Shown: one piece after another, positions 2,369 through 61,136 of the stretch | Layout of the letters: the number at the start of each line of letters is the position of its first letter | How positions within the stretch are numbered: the stretch's first letter is position 1 | NCBI RefSeq assembly: GCF_007751715.1 | Contig: NZ_CP036292.1 | Coordinates: 558,001-622,000 of the forward strand | DNA: 64,000 nt | Reading direction: 5' to 3' | Source: Rosistilla oblonga | GTDB lineage: Bacteria > Planctomycetota > Planctomycetia > Pirellulales > Pirellulaceae | Notes under the pieces: model-generated | Told to the model about the DNA's origin: nothing | The model's database searches: none | What the model saw: only the letters and a program-made list of their open reading frames with translations | Made by a program: the position numbers and the translations under genes

Positions 2369-2610
2369 ATTCAAAGCAATTTGAGAGGTAGCTTGCCAAA
2401 CCGGGCATTTTATCCCAACCTGGGCTGGAGTGAACGGGGTGGAGCAGGGGAGGGCGGGCGAACTTGGCAAGAACCGCTGAAAAGACAGGGATTAAGCCAC
2501 CCAGGGTGAGACCATTTTCGCTCGGTTTTTAGCCGATCTGACGCTTTGGTCTCGCAGGGCGTGCCAGCTGATCCGCTCGCCTGCCGATCGATTTTTTCGA
2601 TTCGATCGGA

Positions 2611-3780
2611 TTAGTAACGGCCTCGGCTGATGCTTCCCGCGACCGCTGCTTGGGGAGCGGGAGCAGGAGCGAGTCCTTCGCCGGCGCGGCCGCCAAAGGT
2701 GATGAACAGCAGGGCATCGGCGCGGCCGGGGGTGTTGCCGATGAAACGGTCGAGGTTCAGCAGTGGATTGGACGAAGTTTGCCGATCGGGGCTGGCGATC
2801 ACGCCGCACGACAGCAGCAGGACCATGTCGGAATCCCAGCGGAAGCGTTCGTGCAGTCGCCAGCTGACGATCTGTGGCACTTCGATCTGCGTGCGGTGCG
2901 ATTGTCCGTTGGGCAGCGGCAGGTCGATGCCGACTGGAACCAATTTATCGACTTGGTCGATCTGGGCTCGGATCACGCATTCGATCGTTTTGCCATCGGT
3001 GTCCAACAGCGGGCTGATCTCCAATTGATAGCCTTCGTGGACTTCGCTGATCTCCGGTTCATAGGGTGGCCAGACGGTCGACGCTTGGCGGATCGTGCGG
3101 ACATAGGTTCGCCCTTTGGTGCTCGAAAGCGATTGGGTTTGCCCGTTGTAGATCGTCATTTGGGAGTTTTGCGATTCGCGAGCGTCGGTTCGCGAGCTGA
3201 GCATCGAAATCAGCACGGCGGCGTTTTCTTTGGTCAGCAGCCAAGCTTGGACACCCGGCGATTGCACGTTGACGTCTTGGATCAACGGCAGAGCGCGAGC
3301 CCGCCAGTTGGGGCTGGATACGGTCAGCAGACGCATCTTCAGGATCTGAGGATCGGTGGGGCCGTTGACGAATCGGTCGACCATTTTTTTGACAACCGCT
3401 TGCATCTCCGGCGTGTGGTAGGCGGTCAGCATGTTGCGGTTGGTGCTAAGGAACCCAAACGGTTCGGAGAACCAGACGTCGGTGCCGGTTTCTCGCAGCA
3501 CCCAATCGACGACAGCTTGTTCGGGCTTGTCGATCTTCGACAGATTGTTGGTGTAGCGGCTCAGATCGTATTGCCGGAACTCTTGGTTCGCGTCGCGCGG
3601 CAGCTGCCCGCTGACCGAAGTCGCCGCGGTTGTGGCCGGTGCGCGTTGCATGCTCGGCGGTGTCGAGAGTCCACCGGTTGTGGGCGGCGGAGTAACTTGG
3701 GCGTAGAGGCTGCGCGCGGACGTCGCAAAACCAATCGCCAGTGCGATCGTGAGCGATGCGTGTAGAGTCTTTTGGAACAT
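2611..3780 (-). CDS. Secreted protein of unknown function
   Basis: A 389-residue protein with a typical signal peptide: basic start (MFQKTLHAS), hydrophobic core, and an Ala-x-Ala-like end near SLYAQ at about residue 28. The ATG at 3780 is chosen so the signal peptide begins at the N-terminus. After a Pro/Thr/Ala-rich linker come mixed alpha/beta sequences (for example WVLRETGTDVWFSEPFGFL near 105-125). The tail is rich in Pro, Ala and Gly and ends SISRGRY. I recognise no catalytic motif or named domain. It stands alone between the ketosynthase-like gene and the Rpn-type gene on the same strand. Probably exported; role unknown. Confidence 0.6.
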   Translation of the reverse strand: MFQKTLHASLTIALAIGFATSARSLYAQVTPPPTTGGLSTPPSMQRAPATTAATSVSGQLPRDANQEFRQYDLSRYTNNLSKIDKPEQAVVDWVLRETGTDVWFSEPFGFLSTNRNMLTAYHTPEMQAVVKKMVDRFVNGPTDPQILKMRLLTVSSPNWRARALPLIQDVNVQSPGVQAWLLTKENAAVLISMLSSRTDARESQNSQMTIYNGQTQSLSSTKGRTYVRTIRQASTVWPPYEPEISEVHEGYQLEISPLLDTDGKTIECVIRAQIDQVDKLVPVGIDLPLPNGQSHRTQIEVPQIVSWRLHERFRWDSDMVLLLSCGVIASPDRQTSSNPLLNLDRFIGNTPGRADALLFITFGGRAGEGLAPAPAPQAAVAGSISRGRY

Positions 3781-4039
3781 GCGTTGCCTTCCTTGGTCGC
3801 CGTCTGCCAGCAAGATCGATCGATTTTGTACTCAAAATGGTAGCGCGTTGGCGGGAGTATAGACAGGCGATGTCACGCGGGCCAAGAGCGAATCCCGGCA
3901 TCGGAGCCGCAAAGCTTGAGCCCTTTTTCCAAAAAGTCTTCGGTGCGACATCGTCGACAGCTTTGCTTGCAATTGCATTGAGCCGGACGTTTCGAACTGT
4001 CGCGTCTGGCGGCGGCAGAGGCGTTGGGCAGGCCGCGTC

Positions 4040-6948: not shown

Positions 6949-8124
6949 ATGACAAACCTGACGATCGCGATGCACGGTGTCACCGGGCGGATGGGAACCC
7001 ATCAACATTTTGTCCGCTCGATTTTGGCGATCATGCGCCAAGGAGGCGTCCGTGCGGCCAACGGAGAAATGATTCAGGTGACGCCGATTCTGCTTGGACG
7101 CAACGAAACGAAGTTGCGACACTTGGCGGAGGTTGTGGCGGACCAAGAGATCGGGACGCAGGTCGCTTGGTCGACCGATGTCGCTGCCGTCCTGACCGAT
7201 CCCCGGGTCGATATCGTCTTCGATGCTTCGAGTACTCAGATGCGGGCGTCGATCGTCCGTCAGGCGGCTCAGCAGGGCAGGGCGGTTTATTGCGAAAAAC
7301 CGATCGCCGTCGATGTGTCACAGGCGATGGTCTTAGCCGAGCTTTGTGAATCGGCGGGAATCAAAAATGGTGTGGTCCAGGACAAGTTGTGGTTGCCGGG
7401 CGTTTGCAAATTGAGAACGCTCCGCGACGGAGGTTTTTTCGGCGATATCCTCAGCGTCCGCGGCGAGTTTGGTTATTGGGTCTTCACCGGCCATGATCCC
7501 GATCGCCCGGCGCAGCGGCCTTCGTGGAACTATCGTCGCGAGGACGGCGGCGGAATGATGCTGGATATGTTCTGTCATTGGCAATATCTGCTGGGCGATC
7601 TGTTGGGCCCAATCGATCGCGTTCTGGCTCACGCGACGATCGATCTGCCCGAGCGAATCGACGAGGCGGGCAACCCTTATGCCTGCACCGCGGACGATTC
7701 GGCGTATGCGATTTTTGTGACCGAAAGCGGGATCACGTGCCAGTTCAATTGCTCTTGGGCGACGCGCGTGCGACGCGACGATCTGTTGACGATCCAAATC
7801 GATGGGACCAAGGGATCGGCGGTCGCTGGATTGCGAGACTGTTGGGTTCAAGAGATGGCTGCGACGCCGCGACCGGTTTGGAATCCCGACATCCCACAAC
7901 CGATCGACTTCCACAGTGGATGGCAGAAGCTGCCCGACACGACGACCTACGACAACGCCTTTAAGGTTCAGTGGGAGTTGTTTTTGCGGCACGTTGCGGC
8001 GGACGAACCATTTCCTTGGACGCTGCGTCGTGGAGTCGACGGAGTTGCGTTGGCCGAAGCCGGTCAGACGTCATCGGCAGAACAACGTTGGGTGTCGCTC
8101 GGCGGATCGCCGTCGTCAATATGA
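6949..8124 (+). CDS. Gfo/Idh/MocA-family oxidoreductase
   Basis: A cytoplasmic NAD(P)-dependent oxidoreductase of about 391 residues. The N-terminal Rossmann fold ([19 protein letters not shown], a variant of the GxGxxG motif) runs to about residue 130, with the typical EKPIAVD motif ([11 protein letters not shown]) that supplies the catalytic Lys region. The C-terminal alpha/beta domain carries the [12 protein letters not shown] segment. The ATG at 6949 is preferred over an in-frame TTG at 6937. The substrate is unknown; many planctomycete homologues act on sugars or inositols. It begins about 50 bases after lepA on the same strand and is followed by a hairpin at 8139. It contains a polar GGGCAGGG at 7275, read as QQGRA. 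Confidence 0.9.
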
Positions 8125-11624: not shown

Positions 11625-11951
11625 GGCAGGCGTTGAGGATTGGGGAGGTGAATCGCGGCCAACGCGATCGCGCGGTGGATCGCAGTTACGCTGGGCGGAT
11701 GCATTGTAGAGTGGGAGGTTCGCCGCAGGGTGCGCGGTCGATTAGATCGTTGCTGCAATCTGAGCAAGCAACAAGGGGGCAATCGAGTCGGCAGCAACTG
11801 CTATACGTGGGGCAGGGCAGGGGGGGCTTTTATTGTCCGGACTCGCCTCTTCATTCGACCTGCGATAGATCGCGACCGGCGGATGCTGCAGTTGCTGCTA
11901 ACTGCACATCTTAAAAAAGGCGGAAGCCTCGGATCTCGCCGAGTGTGTTCC
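11625..11951. other. Intergenic stretch holding a double polar motif
   Basis: There are 327 bases between two - strand genes with no credible ORF. The clear feature is the + strand GGGCAGGGCAGGG at 11810-11822. No promoter or terminator could be assigned with confidence. Confidence 0.5.
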
Positions 11952-12752
11952 TTATTCATCCCAGAGGTCGTCGGTGTAGCCTTCGGGGAAGGGGTTGTAG
12001 TTCTCTTGCTGCAGTTTGCGTTTGCTGAGGTCGTCCGGTTTCGTTGCAGGCTGCTTCTTTTTGCTCCGCGGCGGCGCTGGCTTCTTGAGTGGCTTGGGCT
12101 GCGATTTTTGTTTGGTTGCTTTTTTAGCTGGCTTTGCTTTGGGCTGGGGCAGGGCAGGGGGGCATGGTTTGGGAATTGGCGAGGGTTCTTCGGCGAGCGA
12201 GCTGAGTTCGTCTTGGATCGCGTCGGCATTAAACCGATCCAGCCAGCGGGCCAGTTGTTCGTCGGTCAGTGGGCTGTCGGGCTTGTGCGATTTGCCTCGC
12301 TTGGCCTGTCGATTGCCACGGCCTTGTTTGTTTTTCTTCGCACCGGTAGTGACTTGGCCAGCGAGCAGTCGTTCGTACCAGATGTCCGCGTCGACCGATT
12401 TCCCGCCGCGGCGATCGATCGCTTTTTGAAGCCGATGGTCCGACGAGACGACAGTCAATTGCTTGGGGTGCGAACTCTTTGCGATCAAGTCTTCGATCAA
12501 GTCGTCCGCTTCAGGATGGTCGACGGCATAGAAGATTTGGATTCCGCTGGAGTCGACCTGGTGGGCGTCGATCTGTTTTCCCGAGTGACGGTCGAAGACG
12601 ATCGTCGTTTGGGGAAGGTCTTGCGGTTCCAAATAGGCAGCGATCGTATCGATCAATCGCTGCCGCGCCCGTTCCAACCATGCCGCTCCATGACCGGTTC
12701 CCATCAGGTCGGATTGGTGCAGCAGGTTGTATCCATCGATTAACAGACGCAT
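11952..12752 (-). CDS. NYN-domain (YacP-like) ribonuclease
   Basis: A 266-residue protein with an N-terminal PIN-like NYN domain. It opens MRLLIDGYNLLH (Asp6), followed by TIVFDRH, the acidic HPEADDLIEDLI segment and TVVSSDHRLQKA, which supply the metal-binding acidic residues. Bacillus YacP/Rae1 homologues cleave mRNA on the ribosome. The C-terminal ~90 residues are Lys/Pro/Gln rich, low complexity, and likely RNA- or ribosome-binding. The + strand GGGCAGGGCAGGG at 12147-12159 lies inside this tail and is read on the - strand as PCPPALPQP, so the polar motif overlaps a weakly constrained coding segment. Confidence 0.85.
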   Translation of the reverse strand: MRLLIDGYNLLHQSDLMGTGHGAAWLERARQRLIDTIAAYLEPQDLPQTTIVFDRHSGKQIDAHQVDSSGIQIFYAVDHPEADDLIEDLIAKSSHPKQLTVVSSDHRLQKAIDRRGGKSVDADIWYERLLAGQVTTGAKKNKQGRGNRQAKRGKSHKPDSPLTDEQLARWLDRFNADAIQDELSSLAEEPSPIPKPCPPALPQPKAKPAKKATKQKSQPKPLKKPAPPRSKKKQPATKPDDLSKRKLQQENYNPFPEGYTDDLWDE

Positions 12753-41419: not shown

Positions 41420-41442
41420 CATCTGAATCTTTGCTATCGCCG

Positions 41443-47180: not shown

Positions 47181-47258
47181 TTCGGCGGGGGAGGAATTTA
47201 TATCGTCCCCCCCCTGCCCTGCCCCGCAGTGAGAATCACGGTTTCAATTTGAGGTATC

Positions 47259-47317
47259 AGCCGCCACGCGTTAGCGTCCGGTTGTCCAAGGGAGCCGGAC
47301 GCTAACGCGTGGCGGCT
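47259..47317. repeat. Dispersed hairpin C, copy 1
   Basis: The 23-base arms AGCCGCCACGCGTTAGCGTC-CGG (47259-47281) and complement (47295-47317) are perfect, with a 13-base loop. It is preceded by TTTCAATTTGAGGTATC, also present before copy 2 at 56386. It lies between the channel gene and corA, where it may stop read-through. Confidence 0.88.
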
Positions 47318-47430
47318 AATCTGGCTAAGCTCAACCAGTTAACGGCCCTGCCCTGCCCCGAGATGGAAATTGTGTTTCGCAATTCGGTCGCCTAGATTAG
47401 GGTTTACATTGCCCATTCTAGGATCCGATT

Positions 47431-48624: not shown

Positions 48625-48729
48625 TCGGTCTTCCCGTCGTTTCGCGTGCCCCCCCCTGCCCTGCCCCGCGTTTTGTGAGGCCGGGCGTCTGCCGAACTTA
48701 ACGCGGTGGTGTTGCGGATTGCTTCCCGT

Positions 48730-49179: not shown

Positions 49180-49328
49180 GATGTCTCTTTCCTTTTCTTC
49201 ACGATTGCGGTGGCGATGAACCGATCGGCCTCAGTCGATACAATAACGGGGGCTGATTGTAGGGCAAAACGCGACATCCGCCCTGCCCTGCTCCGTTGTC
49301 GCTTCATCCTTTTTGTGTTGCCGTTCCC

Positions 49329-50261
49329 ATGCCGCTGCTCTTTACCTGTCCCCATTGCCAAACGCAAACGCTGGTGGAAACGCAGTACGCCGGTCAAGCG
49401 GGAGCTTGCGCGGCGTGCGGTCAACCGATCACGGTTCCCGATTTTCAGGAGGAGACCGGCAGCATCGCCATGGAACCGCGGAAATCGATCGGCCGGCCGA
49501 TTCGGTTGATCGCCACGATCTGTGTCGCGGCGGTCGTTGTGTTGGCGGGCGGGATGTTGATGTTTCGTTACGGCGTTTCCGGGATCGCTCAGATTCGTGC
49601 GAATTCGCTGCGCGGGGCCTGCCGCAACAACGTTCGTTTGATCGCGGCGGCGCTGAACGCGTACGCCGATGATTATGGAACCTATCCGACTCCGATGGTG
49701 ACCGATGCGGCGGGGAAGCCGATGTACAGTTGGCGAGTTTTGATCCTTCCCTATCTTGGCCACCAGTCGCTGTACGATCAGTTCAATCTGGCGGAGCCGT
49801 GGAGTTCCGAGACAAACATGGCGCTCGCTTACAGTCGGCCGGCGGAGTATGGATCTCCCGCGGTGGGAAGCAATGTCTGGAGCGAGCCCAATTACATGTT
49901 GATCACCGGCCCAGGGACGCTCTTCCCCGCGTCGGGACCGCTGAGCCCACGCGATGTGATCGACCGACCCGATCAGACGTTGTTGGTCGTCGAGGTCGCG
50001 CGGCCCGCGAACCCGATGGCGGGCAACGAACTGCTGTGGACTCAGCCAGCCGATCTGGACGTCGCTAAGATGGTTCCCGCGATCAACGGGAAGGATGGCG
50101 TGGAGATCGGTGGCAATCACGAAGGAGGCGCGACGGCGGCGACTAGCGACGGACGGGATCACTTCTTGAGCGAGTCGCTGTCGGCGGGTGAGATTCGCGG
50201 CTTGATCACACCTCGCGGCGGCGAACCGCTGCCCGATGATCTTCTCGACGACTGGGAATGA
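49329..50261 (+). CDS. DUF1559-family protein with zinc-ribbon N-terminus
   Basis: 310 residues. The N-terminal zinc ribbon (FTCPHCQTQTLVETQYAG then ACAACGQPI, two Cys pairs) is followed by a single membrane helix over 55-80 (LIATICVAAVVVLAGGMLMF). The DUF1559 periplasmic domain comes next: RNNVRLIAAALNAYADDYGT, YSWRVLILPYLGHQSLYDQF, and DQTLLVVEVA. It resembles a pseudopilin-like segment, and the family is greatly expanded in planctomycetes. Here the helix sits after a cytoplasmic ribbon rather than at the N-terminus, unlike classic type II pseudopilins. The polar motif at 49281 lies 41 bases before the ATG. Confidence 0.85.
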   Translation: MPLLFTCPHCQTQTLVETQYAGQAGACAACGQPITVPDFQEETGSIAMEPRKSIGRPIRLIATICVAAVVVLAGGMLMFRYGVSGIAQIRANSLRGACRNNVRLIAAALNAYADDYGTYPTPMVTDAAGKPMYSWRVLILPYLGHQSLYDQFNLAEPWSSETNMALAYSRPAEYGSPAVGSNVWSEPNYMLITGPGTLFPASGPLSPRDVIDRPDQTLLVVEVARPANPMAGNELLWTQPADLDVAKMVPAINGKDGVEIGGNHEGGATAATSDGRDHFLSESLSAGEIRGLITPRGGEPLPDDLLDDWE

Positions 50262-50326
50262 TCGGCGGTGTGCGGCCGCAAGAAAGCGATCGCATCGAGC
50301 TGCGGATCGCTTGAGAATCGATTTGG

Positions 50327-51589
50327 TTATCGCTTCAGATCGTCCGGACGCATTCCGATCTCGACATCGACCAGCCGCGTGCTGTCGCCGCGATAGATTT
50401 CCATCGAGACGGTGGAACCACCGGTTGTGTCGCCAACCATCCGCATCAATGCGCCCATGTCGCGGACGGGTTGGCTGTTGAAGGCGATGATGATGTCGTC
50501 GGGCAGGATGCCGGCGTTGCGAGCGGGCGAGCTGCCGTTAGCCAGCCCTCGCACCAGTGCGCCTCGGATCAATGGATCGTCGCCGTGGCGTCGCGATTCG
50601 GGAACTTCGTCCAATGCCACGCCCAGCCAGCCGCGGTTGACGTAGCCCGAACTTCTCAGCCGCTCATAGACCTGTTTGGCGACGTTGCTGGGAATCGAGA
50701 AACTAACTCCGCGATAGGTCTCTCCGACGATGGCTGTGTTGATACCGATCAACTCGCCAGCGGAGTTGATCAACGGGCCGCCGCTGTTGCCGGGATTGAC
50801 CGCAACGTCGCTCTGCATGAAATCTTGGTACCGCGTTCCCGCTTTGGTCGCTCGATGCTTGCCGCTCAAGATGCCAAAGGTGACGGTGCGGTCGAGTCCA
50901 AAGGGGCTGCCGACGGCCCAGACCGGCGTGCCGACTTCCGATTTATCGCTATCGCCCCAGCGAACGGGCAGTAGGCCATTGGCTTCGATTTTTAAGATCG
51001 CGATGTCGGTCAACGCGTCCATCCCCACAACCTCTGCCGAAACGCGGCGTCCGTCGCTGAGGCCGACATGGATATCCGAACCCCCTTCGATCACGTGATA
51101 GTTGGTCAGGACAAAGCCTTGGTCGTCGACGATCACGCCGCTCCCTTGATCGCCTGGCAATTCCATCCCCGAACCACGGCGGATGGCGACGGCAAGTTCG
51201 CGTTCCTGTTCGGTCAGGTCGCGTTCGACATCGATGTGGACGACGCTAGGGCCAACGCGTTGGGTGACCATTTGGTAGGCTTGGGCCAGCGAATTCATCG
51301 AGACGTTTCGCAGCCCCTCGCCGCTCGATTCATATTCGGCTCGCAATTCCCCTCGATGCCATGCGTAACGGATCTCTTCGACCAGCGTCGGGACGAGGAA
51401 ACGAGTGGCCAGCAGCAGAACGCCCAGCATCACCAGGCTGACCAATGCTTGGGCCGCACCGGGGCTGGAGGATTGGTTCCGCAGTGGAGGGATTTCTTTC
51501 GGTGGTTTCGGCGAAGGTGTAGACTGGGGCCAGGCGTCCGCGGGACGCGAATATTCGGCCGGTTCGACGTCGAAATCCAGGTGATTCAT
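50327..51589 (-). CDS. HtrA/Deg-type serine protease (S1C) with PDZ domain
   Basis: 420 residues. A Pro-rich cytoplasmic tail precedes a membrane helix near 48-66 (ALVSLVMLGVLLLATRFLV). The chymotrypsin-like domain has the triad His165 (LTNYHVIEGG), Asp195 (DALTDIAILK) and Ser269 (VNPGNSGGPLIN). A single PDZ domain lies over about 315-410 (GWLGVALDEVPES, AGILPDDIIIAFNSQPV). It degrades or refolds damaged envelope proteins. The ATG at 51589 gives MNHLDFDVEP. Only one PDZ, like DegS, fitting a membrane-anchored sensor-type protease. Confidence 0.92.
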   Translation of the reverse strand: MNHLDFDVEPAEYSRPADAWPQSTPSPKPPKEIPPLRNQSSSPGAAQALVSLVMLGVLLLATRFLVPTLVEEIRYAWHRGELRAEYESSGEGLRNVSMNSLAQAYQMVTQRVGPSVVHIDVERDLTEQERELAVAIRRGSGMELPGDQGSGVIVDDQGFVLTNYHVIEGGSDIHVGLSDGRRVSAEVVGMDALTDIAILKIEANGLLPVRWGDSDKSEVGTPVWAVGSPFGLDRTVTFGILSGKHRATKAGTRYQDFMQSDVAVNPGNSGGPLINSAGELIGINTAIVGETYRGVSFSIPSNVAKQVYERLRSSGYVNRGWLGVALDEVPESRRHGDDPLIRGALVRGLANGSSPARNAGILPDDIIIAFNSQPVRDMGALMRMVGDTTGGSTVSMEIYRGDSTRLVDVEIGMRPDDLKR

Positions 51590-51704
51590 CGCTTCACACC
51601 TCAACCAAACGGTTTGGGGCTGCTGAATAGGAGAAGATTGCCGATCCGCGAGCGAATCGCCTTGCGTCTCATTGTAACGAAATCTTTAGCCCGCGACATA
51701 AAAA

Positions 51705-52424
51705 GTGGCCAATCCGCCGAAGCCTCACTTTTTCCCTCCCCCCTCCAGCGCCGATCGTAACGGTTTGGTTGCCATTGACCCCCGGTTCGATCGACCGCGG
51801 ATGTTGGACGCCTATCGGCACGGAATTTTCCCCTGGCCGTGCCGTTGGGCCGACCAGTGGTTTGTCGGTTGGCACAGCCCCGATCCGCGAGCGATCCTGC
51901 CGCTGGATAACGTGCGGATTCCCAAGCGATTGCAACGAAAATTGCGAGCTGGACACTTCCGTTTCCGTTGGAACAGCTGCTTCGACAGCGTGTTGGAACA
52001 TTGTGCCAGCGTGGGGGATCGCAAGGAAAATGCTTGGCTGTGCCCCGATTTGCTCGACGCGATCTCGTCGCTGCATCGATCTGGCGATGCCCACTGCATC
52101 GAGGTCTACGACCGCGACGGAACCCTCTGCGGGGGACTGTATGGGATCGCCGTTGGAGCTGCGTTTTCGGCCGAATCGATGTTCCATCTGCAGAGTGATG
52201 CGTCGAAGGCGGCGGTCTGTGGACTGGTCGCGGTCTTGCGCCACGCCGGCTTTGAATTGATGGACATTCAGCAAACCTCGCCTCATTTGCTCGCCTTTGG
52301 CGCTGTCGAAATCGATCGCTGCGATTATCTTGTAGCTCTCCAGCGGGCGCTGGGCAAACAGCCGTCGTGGCCCGCGACGACCGAACATCCGATCCCCATC
52401 GACCGGATTGGCGCGGAGGATTGA
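51705..52424 (+). CDS. aat: Leucyl/phenylalanyl-tRNA-protein transferase
   Basis: Attaches Leu or Phe from aminoacyl-tRNA to proteins with N-terminal Lys or Arg, marking them for ClpS/ClpAP (N-degron pathway). 239 residues starting at GTG 51705. Conserved marks are AYRHGIFPWP, WHSPDPRAILPLD, VLEHCASVGDRKENAWLCPD, IEVYDRDGTLCGGLYGIAVG, AFSAESMFH (usually GESMF) and the closing LMDIQQTSPHLLAFGAVEI. A polar motif pair (52448) follows the stop. Confidence 0.93.
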   Translation: MANPPKPHFFPPPSSADRNGLVAIDPRFDRPRMLDAYRHGIFPWPCRWADQWFVGWHSPDPRAILPLDNVRIPKRLQRKLRAGHFRFRWNSCFDSVLEHCASVGDRKENAWLCPDLLDAISSLHRSGDAHCIEVYDRDGTLCGGLYGIAVGAAFSAESMFHLQSDASKAAVCGLVAVLRHAGFELMDIQQTSPHLLAFGAVEIDRCDYLVALQRALGKQPSWPATTEHPIPIDRIGAED

Positions 52425-52501
52425 GCGGCGGTGAAATCCGATCGCCCCCCTGCCCTGCCCCGTTTTGTATTTGAACCCAACTTGCGAGCCGAACAAGACT
52501 T

Positions 52502-53788
52502 ATGACCAGCGAACTACGACAGCGAATCTATCAACAACTTGCCAGCGTCGAACTGATCGACCCGCATACCCACATCAACCCATTGGATGCCGGTTCGCAT
52601 ACGCTGGTCGATATCTTGGGCTACCACTATTACACCGAACTGGCCCACTCGGCCGGCATGCCACGCGAGCAGATCGAAGATCCCGCAATTTCGGCGAAGG
52701 AGAAAGTGGGCCGGCTGATCGAAGGCATTGGCCCGATCGATAACACGATCCAATACAGTTGGTTGATCGATATCTGCCAGCGGTTCTTCGGTTTCGAAGG
52801 CGACCGTTTGGACGCGTCGAACTGGGAAGCGTTGTTTGATTCGTCGGAGGCGCAGATGGCCGACGCGGGATGGAGCGACGAGGTGCTGCGACGTAGCAAC
52901 GTCAAGTCGGTCTTTTTGACCAACGATTTCGACGACCCCTTGGCCGGCTTCGACACCGCCAAATATGTTCCTTGCCTGCGGACCGACGATCTGGTTTTCC
53001 ATCTTGGCAAACCCGAGGTGCGGCAGCGATTGGAAGCCGCGACAAAAGTTTCGGTTGGCAGTTGGACCGAATTGCGGGAAGCGATCGGCGTGCTGTTCGA
53101 ACACTTTACGACGAACAACGCCCGCGCGTGTGCGATCTCGATTCCGCCATCGTTTGCTCCCGAACCGGTCTCCGACGGCCGCGTTGAGACGGCGTTGGAT
53201 GCTGTGCTAAAGGATGGCGTCAATGCTGACGAAAGTCATCTGCGGGCGCTCAGCCACCGCATCTTCTGGACCTTGGCCGAGATGTGTGACCAATACGAAT
53301 TGCCTTTCGATCTGATGATCGGCGTCAATCGTGGCGTCTACCCGACGGGCGTCTTCCAAGGGCAAGACCTCTACGACAGCCGCGTCTCGTTGATTCAGTA
53401 TCAACAACTGTTGAACGCCTTCCCGCGGGTCACTTTCCCGATCAGCGTTCTGGCGAGCGTCACCAATCAGGAACTAGCCAGCTACGCTTGGATCTTCCCT
53501 AACGTTGTCACCAATGGACACTGGTGGTACAGCAACACGCCAAGCATCATCGAACGCGACGCAGCGCATCGCTTGGAAGCGGTTCCGCGAACCAAGCAGA
53601 TCGGATATTACAGCGACGCGTACAAGCTGGAGTTTGTCGCACCGAAGTTCGACATGTATCGCAAGATCTTGGCCAAGGTGTTGGAAGAATATTACGTGAT
53701 CGATCGATCGTGGAGCGAAGAGCGAGCTGTCGAGTTCGGCACGCAAGTTCTACGCGGCAACGTCGAAACGACGTTCAAGATCTCGTAG
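52502..53788 (+). CDS. Uronate isomerase-like (UxaC family) protein
   Basis: 428 residues of the amidohydrolase superfamily branch around glucuronate isomerase. The N-terminal metal motif is LIDPHTHINPLDAG; RSNVKSVFLTNDFDDPLAGF, LPFDLMIGVNRGVYPTG and GHWWYSNTPSIIERD follow, and the last is typical of UxaC. If so, it converts glucuronate/galacturonate to the ketouronates. It is shorter and more diverged than E. coli UxaC (470 residues), so another sugar acid is possible. It stands alone, without uxaA/B or a regulator. Confidence 0.78.
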   Translation: MTSELRQRIYQQLASVELIDPHTHINPLDAGSHTLVDILGYHYYTELAHSAGMPREQIEDPAISAKEKVGRLIEGIGPIDNTIQYSWLIDICQRFFGFEGDRLDASNWEALFDSSEAQMADAGWSDEVLRRSNVKSVFLTNDFDDPLAGFDTAKYVPCLRTDDLVFHLGKPEVRQRLEAATKVSVGSWTELREAIGVLFEHFTTNNARACAISIPPSFAPEPVSDGRVETALDAVLKDGVNADESHLRALSHRIFWTLAEMCDQYELPFDLMIGVNRGVYPTGVFQGQDLYDSRVSLIQYQQLLNAFPRVTFPISVLASVTNQELASYAWIFPNVVTNGHWWYSNTPSIIERDAAHRLEAVPRTKQIGYYSDAYKLEFVAPKFDMYRKILAKVLEEYYVIDRSWSEERAVEFGTQVLRGNVETTFKIS

Positions 53789-53809
53789 ACAGCAGCTTTT
53801 TCACCCTCC

Positions 53810-53973
53810 CCCAAACGCAGTTTGTAGGGGAGGGTCGAACGAGCGTAGCAAAGTTCGGGGAGGGGAGTTCTCGATTCAAATCTGGGCCGGTTAATGGTTG
53901 CTGGTATGCCCTCCCCGGAAAACTTGCTAAACGCTTGTTTTTCGACCCTCCCAGCTTCGCCGGGCGGGTGAAG
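53810..53973. repeat. Dispersed repeat D, copy 1 (inverted relative to copy 2)
   Basis: About 164 bases: TTCACCCTCCCC, GTCGAACGAGCGTAGCAAAG, TTCGGGGAGGGG, ACTTGCTAAACGCTTG, CGACCCTCCCAGCTTCG and CGGGCGGGTGAAG. The reverse complement matches 55574-55745 closely. It lies directly after the isomerase stop. Short CCCTCCCC/GGGGAGGG arms make internal hairpins, so GGGGAGGG here occurs in both orientations. Confidence 0.88.
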
Positions 53974-54081
53974 TTATGGAGTGGCGATGTATCTCAATCG
54001 TGAGTTTTCACTATAATCTCATGTTCGTGGGCTCACTCCCCTGCCCTGCTCCGATCGCTTGTTGTGGAAGAGTCTATTTCT

Positions 54082-54510
54082 ATGCCCGAGCCTGCTGACG
54101 ACTCTGCCAACTCGCCGCTGTCGCATCTCTACGAACTGGGGAAGGTGACCGTCTTTTATCTTCCGTCGCACAAGTTGGACGATCCGCGGTATTACCAGGG
54201 AACGCAGACCGCGCGGACGGCGACTCACGATTTCATGATGGATCGCTACCGGGCGTACACGCATTCTCCCACGCCAGTCAAAGGCTATTGGGTCGATTTC
54301 AATGGCCAGTTGGTGCACGACGTGATGGAGCGGTTCGAGGTCTCGTTTGGCAGTGAAGCGGAGTTCGAGCGGTTGATCATTTTTTTGATCGAACTGTGTG
54401 GGCGGTTGAGCGAAGACGCGGTCTACGTGACACGAGGCGAGCGGAGTTTTCTGGTCCACGGCCAGCCGCGGCAAGAGATCGCAAGCGACAGCGGGCATGA
54501 CAACCGATAG
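54082..54510 (+). CDS. Conserved hypothetical protein upstream of truD
   Basis: 142 residues, acidic and soluble: LSHLYELGKVTVFYLPSHKL, RTATHDFMMDRYRAYTHSPT, PVKGYWVDFNGQLVHDVMER, FERLIIFLIELCGRLSEDAV and a disordered tail. No family recognised. Its 3' end overlaps truD by 14 bases, so the two are probably translated from one mRNA. The polar motif at 54039 lies 36 bases before the ATG. Confidence 0.7.
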   Translation: MPEPADDSANSPLSHLYELGKVTVFYLPSHKLDDPRYYQGTQTARTATHDFMMDRYRAYTHSPTPVKGYWVDFNGQLVHDVMERFEVSFGSEAEFERLIIFLIELCGRLSEDAVYVTRGERSFLVHGQPRQEIASDSGHDNR

Positions 54511-55552
54511 TGTTTTGAGATGGACCGCCATGAATCCGATCGATCCTCCCCGTCTGCTGGGTCCCTCGTTGGGATCGGTGATCTTCAAGTCGCAGCCGGA
54601 GGACTTTGAGGTCGAAGAACTGCTTCGCTTCGAACCATCGGGCGAAGGGGAACATTGTCTGGTTTGGTTGGAGAAGCGGCATCGCAATACCAACGATGTC
54701 GCGTCAGAACTGGCGACCAAGCTGGGGCTGCGAAAGCGGTTGATCAGCCACTGCGGCTTGAAGGACAAAGAGGCGGTGACGCGGCAGTGGTTTAGTCTGC
54801 ATCTACCCGGAAAGCCGTCGCCGTCGGCCGAGGATTTGACGGTCGAAGGGGTTCGCGTGTTGCGGATCGTGCGCCACTTGCGCAAGCTGCACCGCGGCGC
54901 GCACGATGGCAATCGCTTTTGGATCCGATTGCGAGGCTGTGAGTTCTCCAAGGAAGCCGCCGCCGCGCGATGGCAGCAGATGATCGACCGTGGCGTTCCG
55001 AACTACTTTGGCACCCAGCGGTTTGGCCGCGACGGTGGGAACGTGCCACAGGCGCTGCGATGGTTCAAGGACGAGATCCAAGTCCGCGATCGGATGCTGC
55101 GTGGGATCCTGTTGTCCGCCGCCCGCAGCTATCTGTTCAACGCCTGCGTCGGTCACCGCGTGCTCGACGGGACATGGGATACGCCGCTGTCGGGCGACGT
55201 GTTTGGGTTCGCCGACAATCGCAGCCTCGTCCTGCCGCACAATCTGCATGGCGATGAAGCCGATCGAGTACGGCAGGGAGCTCTGGAGTTAACCGCTCCG
55301 CTATGGGGCGAAGGGGAGCTGCAGAGCCAAGCCGCAGTCAAAGCGATGGAAGAGCAAGTCGTCGCTGCCTATCCCGAGCTGTTGGCCGGTTTGGCTCAGT
55401 TCAATCTGCGGCAAGAGCGGCGTGTGATGCGGCTGCGCCCACTGTCGGCGGAACTGACCTGGGAGTCCGATTCGACACTCGTGCTGCGGTTCGATCTTCC
55501 CAAAGGAACCTACGCCACGACGCTGCTGCGCGAGTTGGTCGATATTGGTTAA
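54497..55552 (+). CDS. truD: tRNA pseudouridine synthase D
   Basis: Makes pseudouridine 13 in tRNA. 351 residues: LGPSLGSVIFKSQPEDFEVE, WLEKRHRNTNDVASELATKL, then the catalytic Asp in HCGLKDKEAVTRQWFS (Asp90). VPNYFGTQRFGRDGGN and SYLFNACVGHRV follow, and the TruD insertion domain is present. It ends GTYATTLLRELVDIG. An ATG at 54530 would remove 11 residues and the overlap with the upstream gene. It is bracketed by inverted copies of repeat D. Confidence 0.94.
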   Translation: MTTDSVLRWTAMNPIDPPRLLGPSLGSVIFKSQPEDFEVEELLRFEPSGEGEHCLVWLEKRHRNTNDVASELATKLGLRKRLISHCGLKDKEAVTRQWFSLHLPGKPSPSAEDLTVEGVRVLRIVRHLRKLHRGAHDGNRFWIRLRGCEFSKEAAAARWQQMIDRGVPNYFGTQRFGRDGGNVPQALRWFKDEIQVRDRMLRGILLSAARSYLFNACVGHRVLDGTWDTPLSGDVFGFADNRSLVLPHNLHGDEADRVRQGALELTAPLWGEGELQSQAAVKAMEEQVVAAYPELLAGLAQFNLRQERRVMRLRPLSAELTWESDSTLVLRFDLPKGTYATTLLRELVDIG

Positions 55553-55573
55553 CGCCGATGAAGTGTTGTATCC

Positions 55574-55745
55574 CTTCACCCGCCCGAGCGGAGCTGGGAG
55601 GGTCGGGAAACGAGCGTTTAGCAAGTTTTCCGGGGAGGGTTTGACCGCTGGTTCGATCGCTGGCGATTTACCTTGTGACTCGCCTCCCCGAACTTTGCTT
55701 CGCTCGTTCGACCCTCCCCTTCAAGCTGCGCTTGGGGAGGGTGAA
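55574..55745. repeat. Dispersed repeat D, copy 2 (inverted relative to copy 1)
   Basis: CTTCACCCGCCCGAGCGGAG, GCGTTTAGCAAGTTTTCCGG, TTTGCTTCGCTCGTTCGACC and GGGGAGGGTGAA match the complement of 53810-53973. With copy 1 it brackets a two-gene block of about 1.6 kb. It begins 22 bases after the truD stop. No ORF is shared by the copies. Confidence 0.88.
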
Positions 55746-55790
55746 TTTTTGCAAGCCGACGGCTTCAACACGGTTGCCCGTTCATAAGGT

Positions 55791-56339
55791 TTAGCTTGGC
55801 GGTTGGTGCTGTTGGACGATGTCCAGGTGGACTTCGTGCATCGGCAACCAGAAGTCGTTTTTGAGTTTGGGATCGTTGGAGCGGACGATGTTCAGGCTGA
55901 CTTGCAGCTTCTTCAGCGCCGTGTCGAATTGGCTCTTCGTGCACGCGAGCCTTTCGATCGCTCGCTTTCGCAGCGGACCGGTGTAGTCGGGTTCGAGGCG
56001 GATGAATTGGTAGATCTCTTGTGCCAGCGAATCCAATTCGCAGGCCGGTTGGAACGCTGCGGGATAATGGACCTCGCGGAAGTACTGCATCTCGATCAAC
56101 GCGGCATCGCCACCGGGCACTTTTCCGTAGAAGACCGATTCGGGATAGGTCTGCGGAATCCGAGTCTTCCAGTCCCAAACCGCTTTGACCTTAGGGCTCC
56201 ATCCGCCTTCCTTGGGCTTCGCCTCCGGTAGATCGGTGTTGTCCCACAGCGACGGGTAATTCGAACATTGGCTGCCAAAGACCGTGCAGACTTTGTGAGT
56301 TAGCACAAATTGGTAGGCTTGATCAAATGTCTTTAGCAT
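55791..56339 (-). CDS. Conserved hypothetical, possibly AlkZ-related
   Basis: 182 residues with no signal or membrane segment. CTVFGSQCSNYPSLWDNTDL, then WDWKTRIPQTYPESVFYGKV and ALIEMQYFREVHYPAAF recall the PSLWDAI...WGWKD...YYGKLL pattern of short AlkZ-related proteins, relatives of interstrand-crosslink glycosylases. The C-terminus (PLRKRAIERLACTKSQFDTA, LKKLQVSLNIVR) reads like a winged helix. The link is from memory of the motif and uncertain; no catalytic residue can be assigned. Confidence 0.6.
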   Translation of the reverse strand: MLKTFDQAYQFVLTHKVCTVFGSQCSNYPSLWDNTDLPEAKPKEGGWSPKVKAVWDWKTRIPQTYPESVFYGKVPGGDAALIEMQYFREVHYPAAFQPACELDSLAQEIYQFIRLEPDYTGPLRKRAIERLACTKSQFDTALKKLQVSLNIVRSNDPKLKNDFWLPMHEVHLDIVQQHQPPS

Positions 56340-56385
56340 TGGAGCGAGACCCGGCAGGACTGGTAGTGTTTCAAATTGAGGTATC

Positions 56386-56451
56386 AGCCGCCACGCGTTA
56401 GCGTCCGGTTCCCTCCCCCCCCTGGCAACCGGACGCTAACGCGTGGCGGCT
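56386..56451. repeat. Dispersed hairpin C, copy 2
   Basis: Arms 56386-56408 and 56429-56451 are identical to those of copy 1 at 47259 (AGCCGCCACGCGTTAGCGTC-CGG), with a different 20-base C-rich loop. The lead-in TTTCAAATTGAGGTATC is also shared. It lies between the upstream side of the AlkZ-like gene and the end of the DUF202 gene. Confidence 0.88.
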
Positions 56452-56494
56452 GAGTTGCGCAGGTGCAACGGAATGGTGTGGCTGAGGGCCGCCG

Positions 56495-56932
56495 TTACAA
56501 CGGTGTCGATGGTTGTTGCAGGTGAATGTTTCCAGGTGTGGAGCCCGATGTCGGTTCGTCTTGCAGGATGAAGCTGGCGGTCAGGATCGCGGCGGCTGCC
56601 AACAGGTTGCAGAAGACGGCCAGCACCCAGAACGGCATCGCGTTGCGGGCCGCTGGTTGGCAATATTTGATGCCGCGAGCGTATCCGACAAATCCGATCG
56701 CAAACGAGAGGACGGCGACAAAGACCAGGATCATTCCCAGGGTGGTAACGGCCCACCGCGGTTCGGCGTTGGGCATCACCTTGGCAATCGCCAGCCCCGT
56801 CGCCATCGATGCCAGCCCGGTCCGGACCCATGCCGAACAGGTTCGCTCTTCGGCCATCAGCGTTCGATCCAAACCGGTGTCGGGCTGGGCGTTGGCGTTC
56901 TGGCTCTCTGGATTCACGCTATCGTTGCTCAT
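56495..56932 (-). CDS. DUF202-family membrane protein
   Basis: About 145 residues. A soluble N-terminus (LDRTLMAEERTCSAWVRTGL, the DUF202 signature) is followed by three membrane helices (ASMATGLAIAKVM, VTTLGMILVFVAVLSFAIGF, MPFWVLAVFCNLLAAAAILT). The ATG at 56932 overlaps the upstream small gene by 14 bases, making it the last gene of the MarR-YeiH operon. Function unknown; E. coli YidH is a relative. Confidence 0.82.
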   Translation of the reverse strand: MSNDSVNPESQNANAQPDTGLDRTLMAEERTCSAWVRTGLASMATGLAIAKVMPNAEPRWAVTTLGMILVFVAVLSFAIGFVGYARGIKYCQPAARNAMPFWVLAVFCNLLAAAAILTASFILQDEPTSGSTPGNIHLQQPSTPL

Positions 56933-57170
56933 CGGACGCCTTGTCGAGAAGTTGTTCGGCTCGCTGCCGTTGTAAAATCTGTTCCATGACTTCCAGTTCG
57001 GTGTAATACATCGCACTGGGGTCGATTCCTTGATGGTCGAGCCACTGCAGGTGCTTCGTCATCGCCGGTTGGCGGGCGTAGGCTGGCAGGATCACCAGCC
57101 AAACGACCGCGACGCCAGCGATGGCAAGCACCAATGAGAGCAGCTTTTTGGTGTCGGTTAGACCGATCAT
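56919..57170 (-). CDS. Small single-span membrane protein
   Basis: 83 residues: one membrane helix ([20 protein letters not shown]), then a helical tail ([20 protein letters not shown]). No family recognised. It starts within the yeiH stop (4-base ATGA overlap) and overlaps the DUF202 gene by 14, so it belongs to the same operon and may be an accessory of the transporter. Confidence 0.7.
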
Positions 57171-58618
57171 TGTTCAACCACAGGGGCAAAGACGACTTCG
57201 AACATCAGGTAGGCCATCAGCAGGGTCAGGCACAGGTTCAGTGTCTGGCCGCAGACGTAAAGGATCAACGGCTTGCCACCCTTGAGTTGCGGAAGGAGTT
57301 GCTTGAAGTTGGTCTCCAGCCCGATGCTGACAAAAGCGAGGCAGAAGAGCCAGCCACGCAGCGTTTTGGTCGAGCCTTTGATCATCGCGTTGATCAATTC
57401 GGGGCCGGCGGTCATCGTCGAATAGAGTACCGAAAAGAGGATCGACATCGCCACGAAACCGAGGACAAATTTGGGGAAGCGGTACCAGATCTCCGAGGCT
57501 CCCACGCGGGGCGCCGACGGGTCGCGTTCGACATACGTCACCCAATAGATCGCGACACAAAAGGCTGTCACGCCGATCAGGATGTTCTGGATCATCTTCA
57601 CCGTCGCGGCAACTTCTAACGCTTCGTCGCCCAACACCGCACCGGCGGCGGCGACCGCGCCTGTCGAATCGATCGTACCGCCCAGCCAGGCACCGCCCAG
57701 AGTCGGGCTCATTCCCGTCGCTTTGATGATCGCGGGCAGCACGACCATCATGATAACGGTGAAGCTGAGCGACATGCCGATAGCAAGCGATAGCTCTTCC
57801 TTTTTGGCTTTGCACGAGGCCGCGGTCGCGATCGCCGCGGAGACGCCGCAGACCGACATGTCGGCCGAGATCACCATGTTCAACGATCGCGATGGGATCT
57901 TCAAAACCTTCTGGCCGAATATGTAAGTGGATACCAAGACGATTGGCGTTACGACCCAGGCGACAAAGACGCCAGGCAGGCCAAGAGCCAACAAGCGGCT
58001 CATCAATACCTCTGCTCCCAGTAGCACCAAACCGGTCTTGATGAAGAACTCCGTCATGATCGCGGGCCGCAAAAATGCCGGAGTGCCGATTGTGTTACTG
58101 ATGATCAATCCGACCAGCAGTGCCCACAACGCGTATTCCAGGTTGTACGCCTTGAGCACGCTTTGCCCGGCCAGCACGTAGGCCAGCGTGGCGAGCAGGA
58201 AGACGATCGGGAACCCTGCCAGAAAGGCGGCTGCCGATTTGCCGCGACACCACATCGCGAAACCGCACAGGACCGCCAGCACGAGGAAGACGCCGCCGAT
58301 GCCGACCAGTTTGCCATCGAGTGACGCCAGCGGATCCGCTTCCCAGGAGCCCGGCTTGGAGAGGTACGCCTTCAGAGGGCTCACGACTTCCAAAGGTTCT
58401 CCCATCCCGATGCTTTCGGCCAGCCCATCGGGCCGCCCCAGCCAGACCGCACCAAATGCAAAGACCAACAAAAGTGCGGCACACCAAATCGCCCACCAGT
58501 CTTCGGCGGTCCGCATGTCGGTCCATAAACTGTGGCGCTCCGGAGGCAACGTGACCGTGTCATCACCGTCGGGGGCGGCATCGTTGTCGGATGGTTGAGA
58601 ACCTGGTTCGTTGCTCAT
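57167..58618 (-). CDS. YeiH-family putative sulfate exporter
   Basis: 483 residues with about eleven helices, PF03601-like. Family marks are [75 protein letters not shown] and [20 protein letters not shown]. Relatives are suggested to export sulfate or taurine-derived sulfur, although the N-terminal ~60-residue tail here is longer than usual. It lies downstream of a MarR-type gene on the same strand and is followed by two overlapping membrane-protein genes. The regulator probably controls this operon in response to a small anion or drug. Confidence 0.85.
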
Positions 58619-58696
58619 CGTGAATACTTTCGTCGTTGGTGGGAGAATGGTGGGGGAAGCCGACAGCTTTGGGGACTGCAGCTTAAACTAAATCGC

Positions 58697-59206
58697 TTAA
58701 TTCGATTGGCGGTTGCCGCTGGCCGCTCTTTGCTTGGCGGCGCAGCTCATGCTGGCGCGAACCAATTGCAGCAAGCGGATCAGTTCTTTCTGCTCCTTCT
58801 GTTTGAGGCCGTTGATCAAGTTGTCTTCAAATTCGCGAAGCTCTTCGCTGGCGGGACGAACAAGCTTTCTGCCCGCGTCGGTGATCGCGACATACACGGT
58901 CCGCCGGTCCTCTTCGGATCGCTCGCGCGTGACGAGATCGCGGCGCAGCAAACGGTCGACCAGCGCGGTGACGGCGGGGACGATTTGCACCAACCGGTCA
59001 CCGATTTCGCCACAGGTTAGCGGGCGATCTTCCATGTCCAGGATTCGCAACAGGTTGTATTGCGAAAACGTCAACTCGCGAGGACGGAAAAATTGTGACA
59101 GTTGATTGTCTAGTTGGTCGCCAGTTCGTGCCAGGCTGACAATCGCCTCTTGGGCAACGCTCGCAAAGGGTTGGCAGCGTTTTAATTCGTGACGCAGGTC
59201 GTCCAT
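58697..59206 (-). CDS. MarR-family transcriptional regulator
   Basis: About 169 residues starting at ATG 59206. The winged helix is typical: FSQYNLLRILDMEDRPLTCG, EIGDRLVQIVPAVTALVDRL then LRRDLVTRERSEEDRRTVYV (the DxRxxx wing). A C-terminal dimerisation helix follows (EFEDNLINGLKQKEQKELIR). MarR proteins are usually dimeric repressors released by small ligands. It is the first gene of an operon with YeiH, a small protein and DUF202, suggesting local control. Confidence 0.9.
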   Translation of the reverse strand: MDDLRHELKRCQPFASVAQEAIVSLARTGDQLDNQLSQFFRPRELTFSQYNLLRILDMEDRPLTCGEIGDRLVQIVPAVTALVDRLLRRDLVTRERSEEDRRTVYVAITDAGRKLVRPASEELREFEDNLINGLKQKEQKELIRLLQLVRASMSCAAKQRAASGNRQSN

Positions 59207-59412
59207 CGGTTGGATGCTCGTAGGCAGGAGGGGGGCGATCGCGGGTGGGGGAGACGCTGAAAGACGTTGACTCAGTAAAATCTTATGGATAAAATAATCG
59301 GCGATCAAGCGTTGTTTGCCGATTTTTGGCGGATCGGTCGTTAGCGCCCTTCGAGGCTCCGGTTTTCGGTCGCCCGTTGGGATTTTCTACCCCCCCTGCC
59401 CTGCCTCACGTT

Positions 59413-60846
59413 ATGCCTACCATGCAAACCACAGCCATCATCGGTGGCGGCTTCAGCGGAACGCTGGCGGCCGTCAATCTCGCTCGCTTTGCCACCACGC
59501 CTCAACGCGTCGTGATCATCAACTCGGGGCGTCCGTTTGGTCGCGGCACCGCCTATGGAACCACTCGCGGCGAACATTTGTTAAACGTTGCGGCGCGGAA
59601 CATGTCGGCGTTTCCCGACCACCCCAGCCACTTCTTCGATTGGTTGCGATCGCGCTGCGATTACGACGGACTCAGCGACGATGTGCTGCGAGAGACGTTT
59701 ATCCCGCGGCGGATCTTCGGCGACTATGTTCGTGGGTTGGCATCGCATTATTTGGGCGGAGCCGATCCTCGCAGCCAAGTCGAGTGTCAGGTCGTCGAGG
59801 ATTCAGCCGTCGACATCCAGCCGCGCGGCGAGAACGGCGGTGTGGTGATGTTGGAGCATGGCGATCCGATCGAAGCGGAGTCGGTGCTGCTGGCAACGGG
59901 CAATCAGCCGCCGGCTGGGCTGCCGGGATCGGGCAAACTGGCCAACGATCGTCGCTACTGCGGCAATCCCTGGACAGCGTGGCATGAAAACCTGCCCGAC
60001 GACGACAAGCACATCGTGATCTTGGGGACTGGGCTGACCGCTGTCGACGTGATCGTGACGCTACGGCACAAAGGATGGAACGGCAAGATCACCGCGATCT
60101 CGCGGAATGGGATGCTGCCTCAGCGTCACTTCCGTGGCATCGCCTGGCCGACCTCGATCCCCGACGACGGCCAGACGCGATCGTTGAAGGAGTTGGTTAG
60201 CCTGATCCGACAGGACTGTCAGCGGTTGCGTGGTGCCAGCCAAAACCCAGCGATCGCTGTCGACAAGTTGCGCAGCCGAACGCAGATGTTGTGGCGGAAT
60301 CTTTCGATCGATGAAAAACGCCAATTCTTGAAGGACTATGCGGCCGATTGGAATGTGATCCGGCATCGCATTGCCGGGCCGATCCACGACGCGGTCACCG
60401 ATTCGTTGGACTGTGGGCAGTTGACGATCCTTCCCGCCACGATCGAATCGTTGGATGCGGGGGAGACGTCGATCGAAGTTCAATTGGCTGCCGGCGGCGA
60501 TGGTCCCGATCGGATTCATGGCGACATGGTGATCAATTGCACCGGGCCGAAGTCGCGGTTTTCCGATTCGCAGATTCCGCTGTACCGCGCCCTGTTCGAT
60601 CGCGGCATCGCCAAGCCGGATGCGATGGACATGGGAATCGCCGTCACCGATGACTTTGCGGTCGTTGGGGATGATGATCGCCCGTCGCCCTTTCTGTATG
60701 CGATCGGTCCGATCTTGAAGGGGACTCTGTGGGAAACGATCGCCGTACCCGAGCTTCGCCAGCAAGCGATGGCGGTCGTCCAAACGATTCTCAAGCAAAA
60801 ACCGATTCGCGTGGCCAGTCCCGAGACGATCGAGTACTGCATCTAA
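59413..60846 (+). CDS. FAD/NAD(P)-binding oxidoreductase (YdhS-like)
   Basis: About 477 residues with a Rossmann start (TTAIIGGGFSGTLAAVNLAR) and a second nucleotide motif in HIVILGTGLTAVDVIVTLR. GRGTAYGTTRGEHLLNVAAR and NMSAFPDHPSHFFDWLRSRC match the FAD-NAD(P)-binding (PF13454) family. A substrate cannot be named. ATG 59413 or 59422 starts at the fold; the upstream TTG extension is unlikely. A polar motif (59394) ends 12 bases before the ATG, so it overlaps the ribosome-binding region. Confidence 0.85.
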   Translation: MPTMQTTAIIGGGFSGTLAAVNLARFATTPQRVVIINSGRPFGRGTAYGTTRGEHLLNVAARNMSAFPDHPSHFFDWLRSRCDYDGLSDDVLRETFIPRRIFGDYVRGLASHYLGGADPRSQVECQVVEDSAVDIQPRGENGGVVMLEHGDPIEAESVLLATGNQPPAGLPGSGKLANDRRYCGNPWTAWHENLPDDDKHIVILGTGLTAVDVIVTLRHKGWNGKITAISRNGMLPQRHFRGIAWPTSIPDDGQTRSLKELVSLIRQDCQRLRGASQNPAIAVDKLRSRTQMLWRNLSIDEKRQFLKDYAADWNVIRHRIAGPIHDAVTDSLDCGQLTILPATIESLDAGETSIEVQLAAGGDGPDRIHGDMVINCTGPKSRFSDSQIPLYRALFDRGIAKPDAMDMGIAVTDDFAVVGDDDRPSPFLYAIGPILKGTLWETIAVPELRQQAMAVVQTILKQKPIRVASPETIEYCI

Positions 60847-61136
60847 CCTCGACCCTGTTGGCGACTGCTTAGACGCGTCTGTTTCCTACCAGTCATCACG
60901 CTCGCGATCGGGGTTCCGCCTGCCGATCGCCTGCGATCGGGTCGCGTGAAGGTACCGCCCCGCCCTGCCCTGCCCCGATCTCTTGTCGTCAGCTCCAGGT
61001 GGTCTGGAGGATTGTGGTGTGGTGTTGAGTCAATGTTGAGCGAAGAAGGATCCCCGGCTGATTTCACCTGCCGGGGCGATAGCGTTTATCATCATGGCTC
61101 CCCTGCCCTTCTCCCTTTGCTCGCCTGGAGTTTGTC

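Follow-up and report, generated by a model that had tools for sequence, protein, structure and literature searches.

The window analysed here, a 64-kb stretch of the Rosistilla oblonga chromosome (positions 558001–622000 of the single 7,250,512-bp contig; genome label G000), carries two facing arrays of the octamer GGGCAGGG, very probably FtsK-orienting polar sequences (KOPS), and between them a candidate for the recombination site dif just 3′ of accA. An exact count gave 20 copies on the + strand (window 7275–37527) and 17 on the − strand (41471–61108), the numbers given in the original prediction made by eye from the letters; in the whole window, zero copies lay against the orientation of the arm on either side. 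Merging overlapping copies left 14 loci on the + strand and 12 on the − strand, in agreement with the predicted 14 and 12 or so independent loci. The predicted range had opened at 2447, a position that holds a GGGGAGGG; the polar arms themselves stand, with the first GGGCAGGG at 7275. Orientation switches across a 3.9-kb gap between 37.5 and 41.5 kb of the window, and the dif candidate in this gap lies near the 39.5 kb or so on which both arms had been predicted to converge. The sites and the two genes flanking the candidate are as follows (window coordinates; all KOPS by exact count).

7275–7282, + strand: KOPS GGGCAGGG
11810–11822, + strand: double KOPS GGGCAGGGCAGGG
12147–12159, + strand: double KOPS
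14829–14836, + strand: KOPS
17783–17795, + strand: double KOPS
19634–19646, + strand: KOPS with NAGGG extension (GGGCAGGGGAGGG)
21153–21165, + strand: double KOPS
25619–25631, + strand: KOPS with NAGGG extension (GGGCAGGGTAGGG)
28407–28414, + strand: KOPS
30581–30593, + strand: KOPS with NAGGG extension
32647–32659, + strand: double KOPS
33112–33124, + strand: double KOPS
36391–36403, + strand: KOPS with NAGGG extension
37520–37527, + strand: KOPS, the final GGGCAGGG left of dif
38662–39636, + strand: accA, for the alpha subunit of acetyl-CoA carboxylase, adjoining dif on the left (Pfam ACCA, 452 bits)
39754–39781, + strand: dif candidate ACGTCCGATAATGCCTCTTATGTTGTAT (weighted consensus, polarity gap, conservation)
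39876–40610, − strand: gene for a CvpA-like membrane protein, right neighbour of dif (Pfam Colicin_V, 87.6 bits)
41471–41478, − strand: KOPS, nearest right of dif, context like that at 41895
41895–41902, − strand: KOPS, duplicated context
42255–42262, − strand: KOPS
47212–47224, − strand: double KOPS
47346–47358, − strand: double KOPS
48654–48666, − strand: double KOPS
49281–49288, − strand: KOPS
52448–52460, − strand: double KOPS
54039–54046, − strand: KOPS
59394–59401, − strand: KOPS
60963–60975, − strand: double KOPS
61101–61108, − strand: KOPS

One hundred dinucleotide shuffles of the window yielded a mean of 1.58 copies of GGGCAGGG with both strands summed (maximum 5), against the 37 observed. 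Leaving position 4 free raised the number of matches in the window to 56, versus 6.2 expected, a few of them misoriented. The whole genome has 142 + 155 copies of the octamer versus 85 + 86 of the reversed word. We read 398–862 kb of the chromosome, window included, without gaps (464 kb) and, elsewhere, 80 samples of 20 kb taken every 80–100 kb. Polarity reached well past the window: across the 464 kb, 79 of 82 copies were oriented toward the switch, and in a scan of octamers about the dif candidate GGGCAGGG ranked first of 21,454 (79 toward, 3 away). Out to 600 kb, copies facing dif outnumbered those facing away in every one of the ten distance bins sampled, five on each side; past 600 kb counts were low, at about background, in samples that cover about 28% of the chromosome. 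The sampled density of copies facing dif was 35–50 per 100 kb within 50 kb, 5–15 at 100–300 kb and about 1–3 beyond 1.2 Mb.

To locate dif, we derived a weighted consensus from known dif sites and used it to score all 28-mers on either strand of the 464 kb. The top-scoring one (28.5 of 39; runner-up 26.5) was window 39754–39781, at 0.598 Mb of the chromosome, inside the polarity gap and in the short intergenic space between accA and the cvpA-like gene. It has the layout of a XerC-like arm, a 6-bp centre and a putative XerD arm, TTATGTTGTAT, whose letters match those of E. coli at 9 of 11 positions. Among 30 relatives searched, own genome included, the site occurred in seven with at most three mismatches over the 25 specified bases: R. 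oblonga itself, two congeneric species (at 566 and 683 kb), G012, G014, G015 and G029. The core TCCGATAATNNNNCTTATGTT, with at most one mismatch, was found in 99 of 294 genomes of the phylum and the reversed word in 7 of 294. A search of the whole window genome gave no second core within one mismatch, and the samples, which cover the region in part, contained no KOPS cluster near the terminus indicated by skew (3.5–3.8 Mb).

The same arrangement recurred in relatives. Within 100 kb on either side of dif, GGGCAGGG was the top octamer in all five family genomes compared (toward:away, 52:3 in G000; 48:2 and 59:2 in G001 and G002, of the same genus; 34:0 and 38:1 in G012 and G014, of two other genera). 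The best changepoint interval of polarity included dif in all five, and the site is kept at the flip in G001, G002, G012 and G014. In the neighbourhood of dif, G012 and G014 share only 16 and 23 kb of high-scoring segment pairs with the window genome, and their arrays have therefore been kept at largely different positions. Where DNA could be aligned within the genus, 48 of 51 GGGCAGGG sites were conserved in G002 and 32 of 41 in G001, versus 234 of 399 and 176 of 372 control 8-mers of equal base composition.

We extended the comparison with an exact scan of species genomes for the dif core, with S in place of C, which found at least 118 stretches; 80 were given as loci, 58 of them planctomycete by title and 22 other or unlabelled, related genomes among them. 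Three loci that had two matches apiece, two of them planctomycete and one from the other group, were excluded, which left 56 and 21. In the 56 planctomycete loci GGGCAGGG ranked first of 28,898 octamers (123 toward, 10 away), and in the 21 others second of 3,436 (15 toward, 1 away). Omnitrophota loci and others without a planctomycete label (L170, L191, L199 and L235) likewise had GGGCAGGG oriented toward their dif-like sites. A wider test found accA in 34 of the 56 planctomycete loci (22 at most 600 bp from dif, 29 on the same strand) and a strict test in 20; several loci without accA have little upstream DNA. None of the 21 non-planctomycete or unlabelled loci had accA. The linkage offers a handle for locating dif in planctomycetes. 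The relatives of its dif and accA likewise mark the window genome as planctomycete, as the original prediction had it. In the window, two adjoining protein-kinase genes (36545–38569) also lie beside accA and dif. Two planctomycete metagenome-assembled genomes, JAISYL01 and JAITIZ01 (L183, L193, L200, L202, L228 and L240), showed dif-like words on several contigs, in JAISYL01 paired about 250 bp apart in opposite orientation; these multiple words possibly belong to Xer-dependent mobile elements.

The genome encodes the proteins that would act on these sites. FtsK (896 aa, gene at 4.41 Mb) has a gamma domain (85.7 bits), as did FtsK in all 59 genomes of the phylum examined. Its residues 295–837 match the solved FtsK 2iut (E = 1.7e-127), and in sequence its gamma domain aligns with the solved gamma chains 2j5o, 2ve8 and 2j5p, the recognition helix reading IGYGRAARMIDFMAEDGIV versus IGYNRAARIIEQMEAQGIV in 2j5p. 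XerD (TIGR02225) scored 359.6 bits against a cut-off of 329.6, at 540 kb, and a second full-length Xer at 4.468 Mb scored 325.1 bits, just under the same cut-off.

We are confident that the GGGCAGGG arrays are planctomycete KOPS converging on dif just 3′ of accA. The KOPS-like system of the original prediction has thus gained a dif-like site in the gap, an FtsK gamma domain, XerD with a second Xer, recurrence, and conservation above controls. Binding by FtsK, the direction of pumping and Xer recombination may be expected to follow E. coli. The two arms, dense within about 50 kb and thinning over several hundred kb, would aim at one dif; gamma domains would load on KOPS in one orientation, the motor would pump DNA toward dif from both sides, and FtsK arriving at dif would activate XerC/XerD for the resolution of chromosome dimers. 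The site of division, or the neck of the bud, would thereby be cleared of the last DNA.

Several results weigh against this reading. Three of the 82 copies in the 464 kb, and 10 of the 133 in the phylum loci, are oriented away from dif, and those loci were selected by a dif-like word among the matches listed, so that chance matches may be included. The XerC-like arm matches E. coli at only 5 of 11 positions, the margin of the dif score is modest (28.5 versus 26.5), and a simple count of mismatches to E. coli dif leaves the candidate, at 11, tied with 12 others, so that the case for dif rests on position and conservation. In an E. coli K-12 control of 100 kb about dif, the six copies of GGGCAGGG fell outside the 12 top octamers listed. 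Positions of FtsK that read KOPS in E. coli differ in the window genome (1296 is G, 1303 is D and 1306 is A); passages of PMC2680272 give R1300, E1303 and E1306 of E. coli as taking part in recognition. The remaining points concern the replication axis. In none of the five family genomes does GC skew change sign across dif, and only G014 shows a step down there; once gene strand is corrected for, the sign changes fall near 3.6 Mb and somewhere within 6.4–7.25 Mb, away from dif at 0.598 Mb. dnaA–dnaN stand at the contig start (64–2687), placing dif about 8% of the chromosome from the classical origin signature, and 3 of the 20 exact DnaA boxes in the genome fall within 1.9 kb spanning the contig ends.

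Could the polarity be a by-product of strand composition or gene orientation? G-rich polar words are frequent in skewed genomes, the + strand of the window is G-rich nearly throughout, and some one-base variants of the octamer are partly polar, up to 0.78 toward. However, the motif flips where GC skew stays unchanged, and its polarity is independent of gene strand: copies in called genes were 8 co-directional to 5 opposed in the left arm and 7 to 7 in the right, and 55 of the 82 sites in the 464 kb fell outside called genes, in gaps that make up about 22% of the sequence (by our own codon-usage caller, which called 1,270 genes, 74% coding, and missed some). In pooled sets made of the 464 kb, four relatives and the 56 loci, with related genomes among them, the exact word faced dif in 381 of 399 cases, whereas one-base variants did so at fractions of 0.42–0.78 (0.53–0.57 at position 8 and 0.43–0.57 at position 6). 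On the absence of a skew flip, the rank of first among 21,454 octamers and the gene counts, we rejected composition and gene-strand bias as the cause, which leaves this explanation very improbable. Still less probable, to the point of being negligible, is a mobile or duplicated element spread over the region: a few sites, such as those at 41471 and 41895, have similar surroundings, but copy flanks hold little shared information past the 13-bp extension described below, and the arrays recur in genera with little alignable DNA.

A different polar signal that merely lies around dif is also improbable, with a somewhat larger small chance than the other two. Architecture imparting sequences (AIMS) are strand-biased octamers that increase toward the terminus, most of them, according to passages of PMC5993296, with unknown function, and several residues that read KOPS in E. 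coli FtsK are changed here. The octamer is nevertheless the KOPS word already known, it switches polarity at dif, and an FtsK gamma domain is encoded; in contrast to AIMS, the rise is toward dif and not toward the GC-skew shift points. A Chi-like site is less likely because Chi is contrasted with terminus-rising words in the same passages (PMC5993296).

KOPS converging on dif invite comparison with known systems. The E. coli system of KOPS, FtsK gamma and XerCD–dif shares the octamer, the convergence on dif, the gamma domain and the Xer recombinases; in the K-12 control, GGGNAGGG was oriented 13:0 and GGGCAGGG 6:0 toward dif. Within 50 kb of dif, the window genome had 43 copies of GGGCAGGG toward and 1 away and the five family genomes had 25–45 toward, compared with 6 in E. 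coli. The window's genus also differs from E. coli in that GC skew does not flip at dif. Among 31 planctomycete gamma domains (our own and the 30 best-scoring of 59 genomes, some congeneric), residue 1300 was R or K, 1303 was D or E, 1306 was E in three, and 1296 was never N, unlike in E. coli. Deinococcus radiodurans, of a different phylum, shares GGGCAGGG; passages of PMC9764985 report that the word occurs there at high density around ter and that FtsK binds it in vitro. Polar guide sequences for FtsK-family pumps are likewise described, in passages of PMC5357621 and PMC9764985, for SpoIIIE and its recognition sequences (SRS) in B. subtilis and for L. lactis KOPS. The B. subtilis SRS, GAGAAGGG, differs from GGGCAGGG. 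The L. lactis KOPS, to go by a cited title, is reportedly an atypical motif.

The fit to the E. coli KOPS consensus claimed in the original prediction holds for the octamer, but position 4 is narrower than in GGGNAGGG, at least in the family. Pooled counts at position 4 (toward:away) were 381:18 for C, 36:10 for T, 72:47 for G and 22:19 for A, those for T and G taken outside double sites. A at this position (GGGAAGGG) was oriented 9:14 in the family (five genomes), 13:5 across the phylum (56 loci) and 5:0 in E. coli; given this split, a firm exclusion of A is restricted to the family. The E. coli rule of any base at position 4 clearly fails only in the window's family, where position 4 appears to be read mainly as C.

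The predicted frequent double site proved to be a real sequence pattern. The consensus 3′ of the octamer is [CG]AGNG, and NAGGG follows 22 of the 79 GGGCAGGG sites in G000, where composition predicts 0.4 (the figure for all GGG is 1.9%). None of the five family genomes had a 13-mer oriented away from dif, and double sites, common in the window genome, occurred at 0 of 13 E. coli sites. Three FtsK gamma modules contact successive GGG, NA and GGG, according to passages of PMC5357621; a 13-bp site would therefore offer two registers, 5 bp apart, and may aid FtsK loading. Separately, window 41440–42260 contains mutually similar segments, each with a KOPS, together with short repeats containing GTCGCGAAGGCGACGG.

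The original prediction had named flips away from the skew minimum or maximum among the findings that would count against it, and on skew it was not borne out: GC skew is positive over nearly the entire window, and the switch lies at no GC-skew shift. We do not take this mismatch as refuting KOPS convergence, because dif and the gene set are present. After correction for gene strand, + strand third codon positions were G-rich in eight of nine 0.4-Mb bins over 0–3.6 Mb (exception 2.4–2.8 Mb) and T-rich in eight of nine (2.8–3.2 Mb neutral), the dif bin being the strongest; they were C- and A-rich over 3.6–6.4 Mb, and over 6.4–7.25 Mb GC was about zero while A-richness lasted to about 7.2 Mb. 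With one mismatch allowed in DnaA boxes, the contig ends were the densest 2 kb of 3,751 overlapping sample windows. Composition, dnaA–dnaN and the DnaA boxes together suggest a classical origin near 0 Mb and a terminus near 3.6 Mb. G000 has two genes with DnaA domains, a shorter one adjoining dnaN (C1:97–558) and a longer one at 5.3 Mb (C1:5316456–5316920).

Other markers fit a terminus at dif, with forks running to it. parA, parB and three parS-like sites (one or two mismatches, 4.571–4.575 Mb) lie nearly opposite dif, and one further site with two mismatches lies at 1.99 Mb; parS-like words with at most three mismatches were no commoner than the reversed word (23 versus 25 per strand) and so carry weight only in their clustering beside parAB. 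Among 19 full-length 16S copies in 10 genomes, 18 run toward dif and 11 away from dnaN, and G223 has divergent 16S copies opposite dif. The 16S survey covered 25 genomes, of which 15 had no match, probably a limit of the search, in which 10 candidates per genome were scored; related genomes, three of them from this genus, do not count as independent. Each arm was treated as half of a circle of rounded genome size, and a 141-bp partial copy was dropped. Of 21 E. coli ribosomal and RNA-polymerase queries, three matched in the samples: rpoA–rplQ (alpha operon, 5.86 Mb, − strand) fit an origin at 0, and rpsD (0.41 Mb, − strand) fits neither axis. Ten tRNAs in the samples (five toward dif, four away from 0) were uninformative on the replication axis.

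Across the phylum, TA skew changed at dif in one direction in 25 of 30 planctomycete loci flanked on each side by 1.5 kb or more, and GC skew in the same set changed weakly (18 of 30). dif lay at least 25% of the genome from dnaN in 19 of 27 planctomycete genomes, versus 7.6–9.1% in the window's genus (hand-computed; of 31 genomes, these 27 carry dif and dnaN on the same contig, three of them in multi-contig assemblies). Most of the phylum therefore probably has its terminus at dif. For the window's genus there are two readings: composition and dnaA are misleading, or the site of dimer resolution has parted from the replication terminus. That segregation (dif and KOPS at 0.60 Mb, parAB–parS at 4.57 Mb) and replication (origin about 0, terminus about 3.6 Mb) follow uncoupled axes in this genus is a serious possibility that we would stop short of calling probable. 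If so, FtsK would move the last stretch of DNA through the neck of the bud to an origin-proximal dif, and KOPS and dif would set what leaves last, independently of where replication ends.

To our knowledge, planctomycetes lack FtsZ, and many of them bud. Titles and abstracts of the open-licence PMC literature yielded no description of KOPS or dif in planctomycetes, and that literature yielded none of how DNA is guided through a planctomycete bud neck; KOPS converging on dif are thus, as far as the open literature shows, new to the phylum, with differences in reading and density. A 2011 survey failed to find dif in the planctomycetes, and elsewhere the position of dif correlates strongly with that of the skew shift point, as passages of PMC3025954 state; the skew mismatch might therefore help to explain that failure. 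In Planctopirus limnophila, the conserved division gene ftsK could not be deleted whereas ftsI, ftsW and mreB could, according to passages of PMC6952346. A dif site on which KOPS converge, and which had accA nearby in 34 of the 56 loci sampled, would give DNA clearance through the neck a concrete address, and the mismatch between dif and GC skew lets one ask whether dif must coincide with the end of replication.

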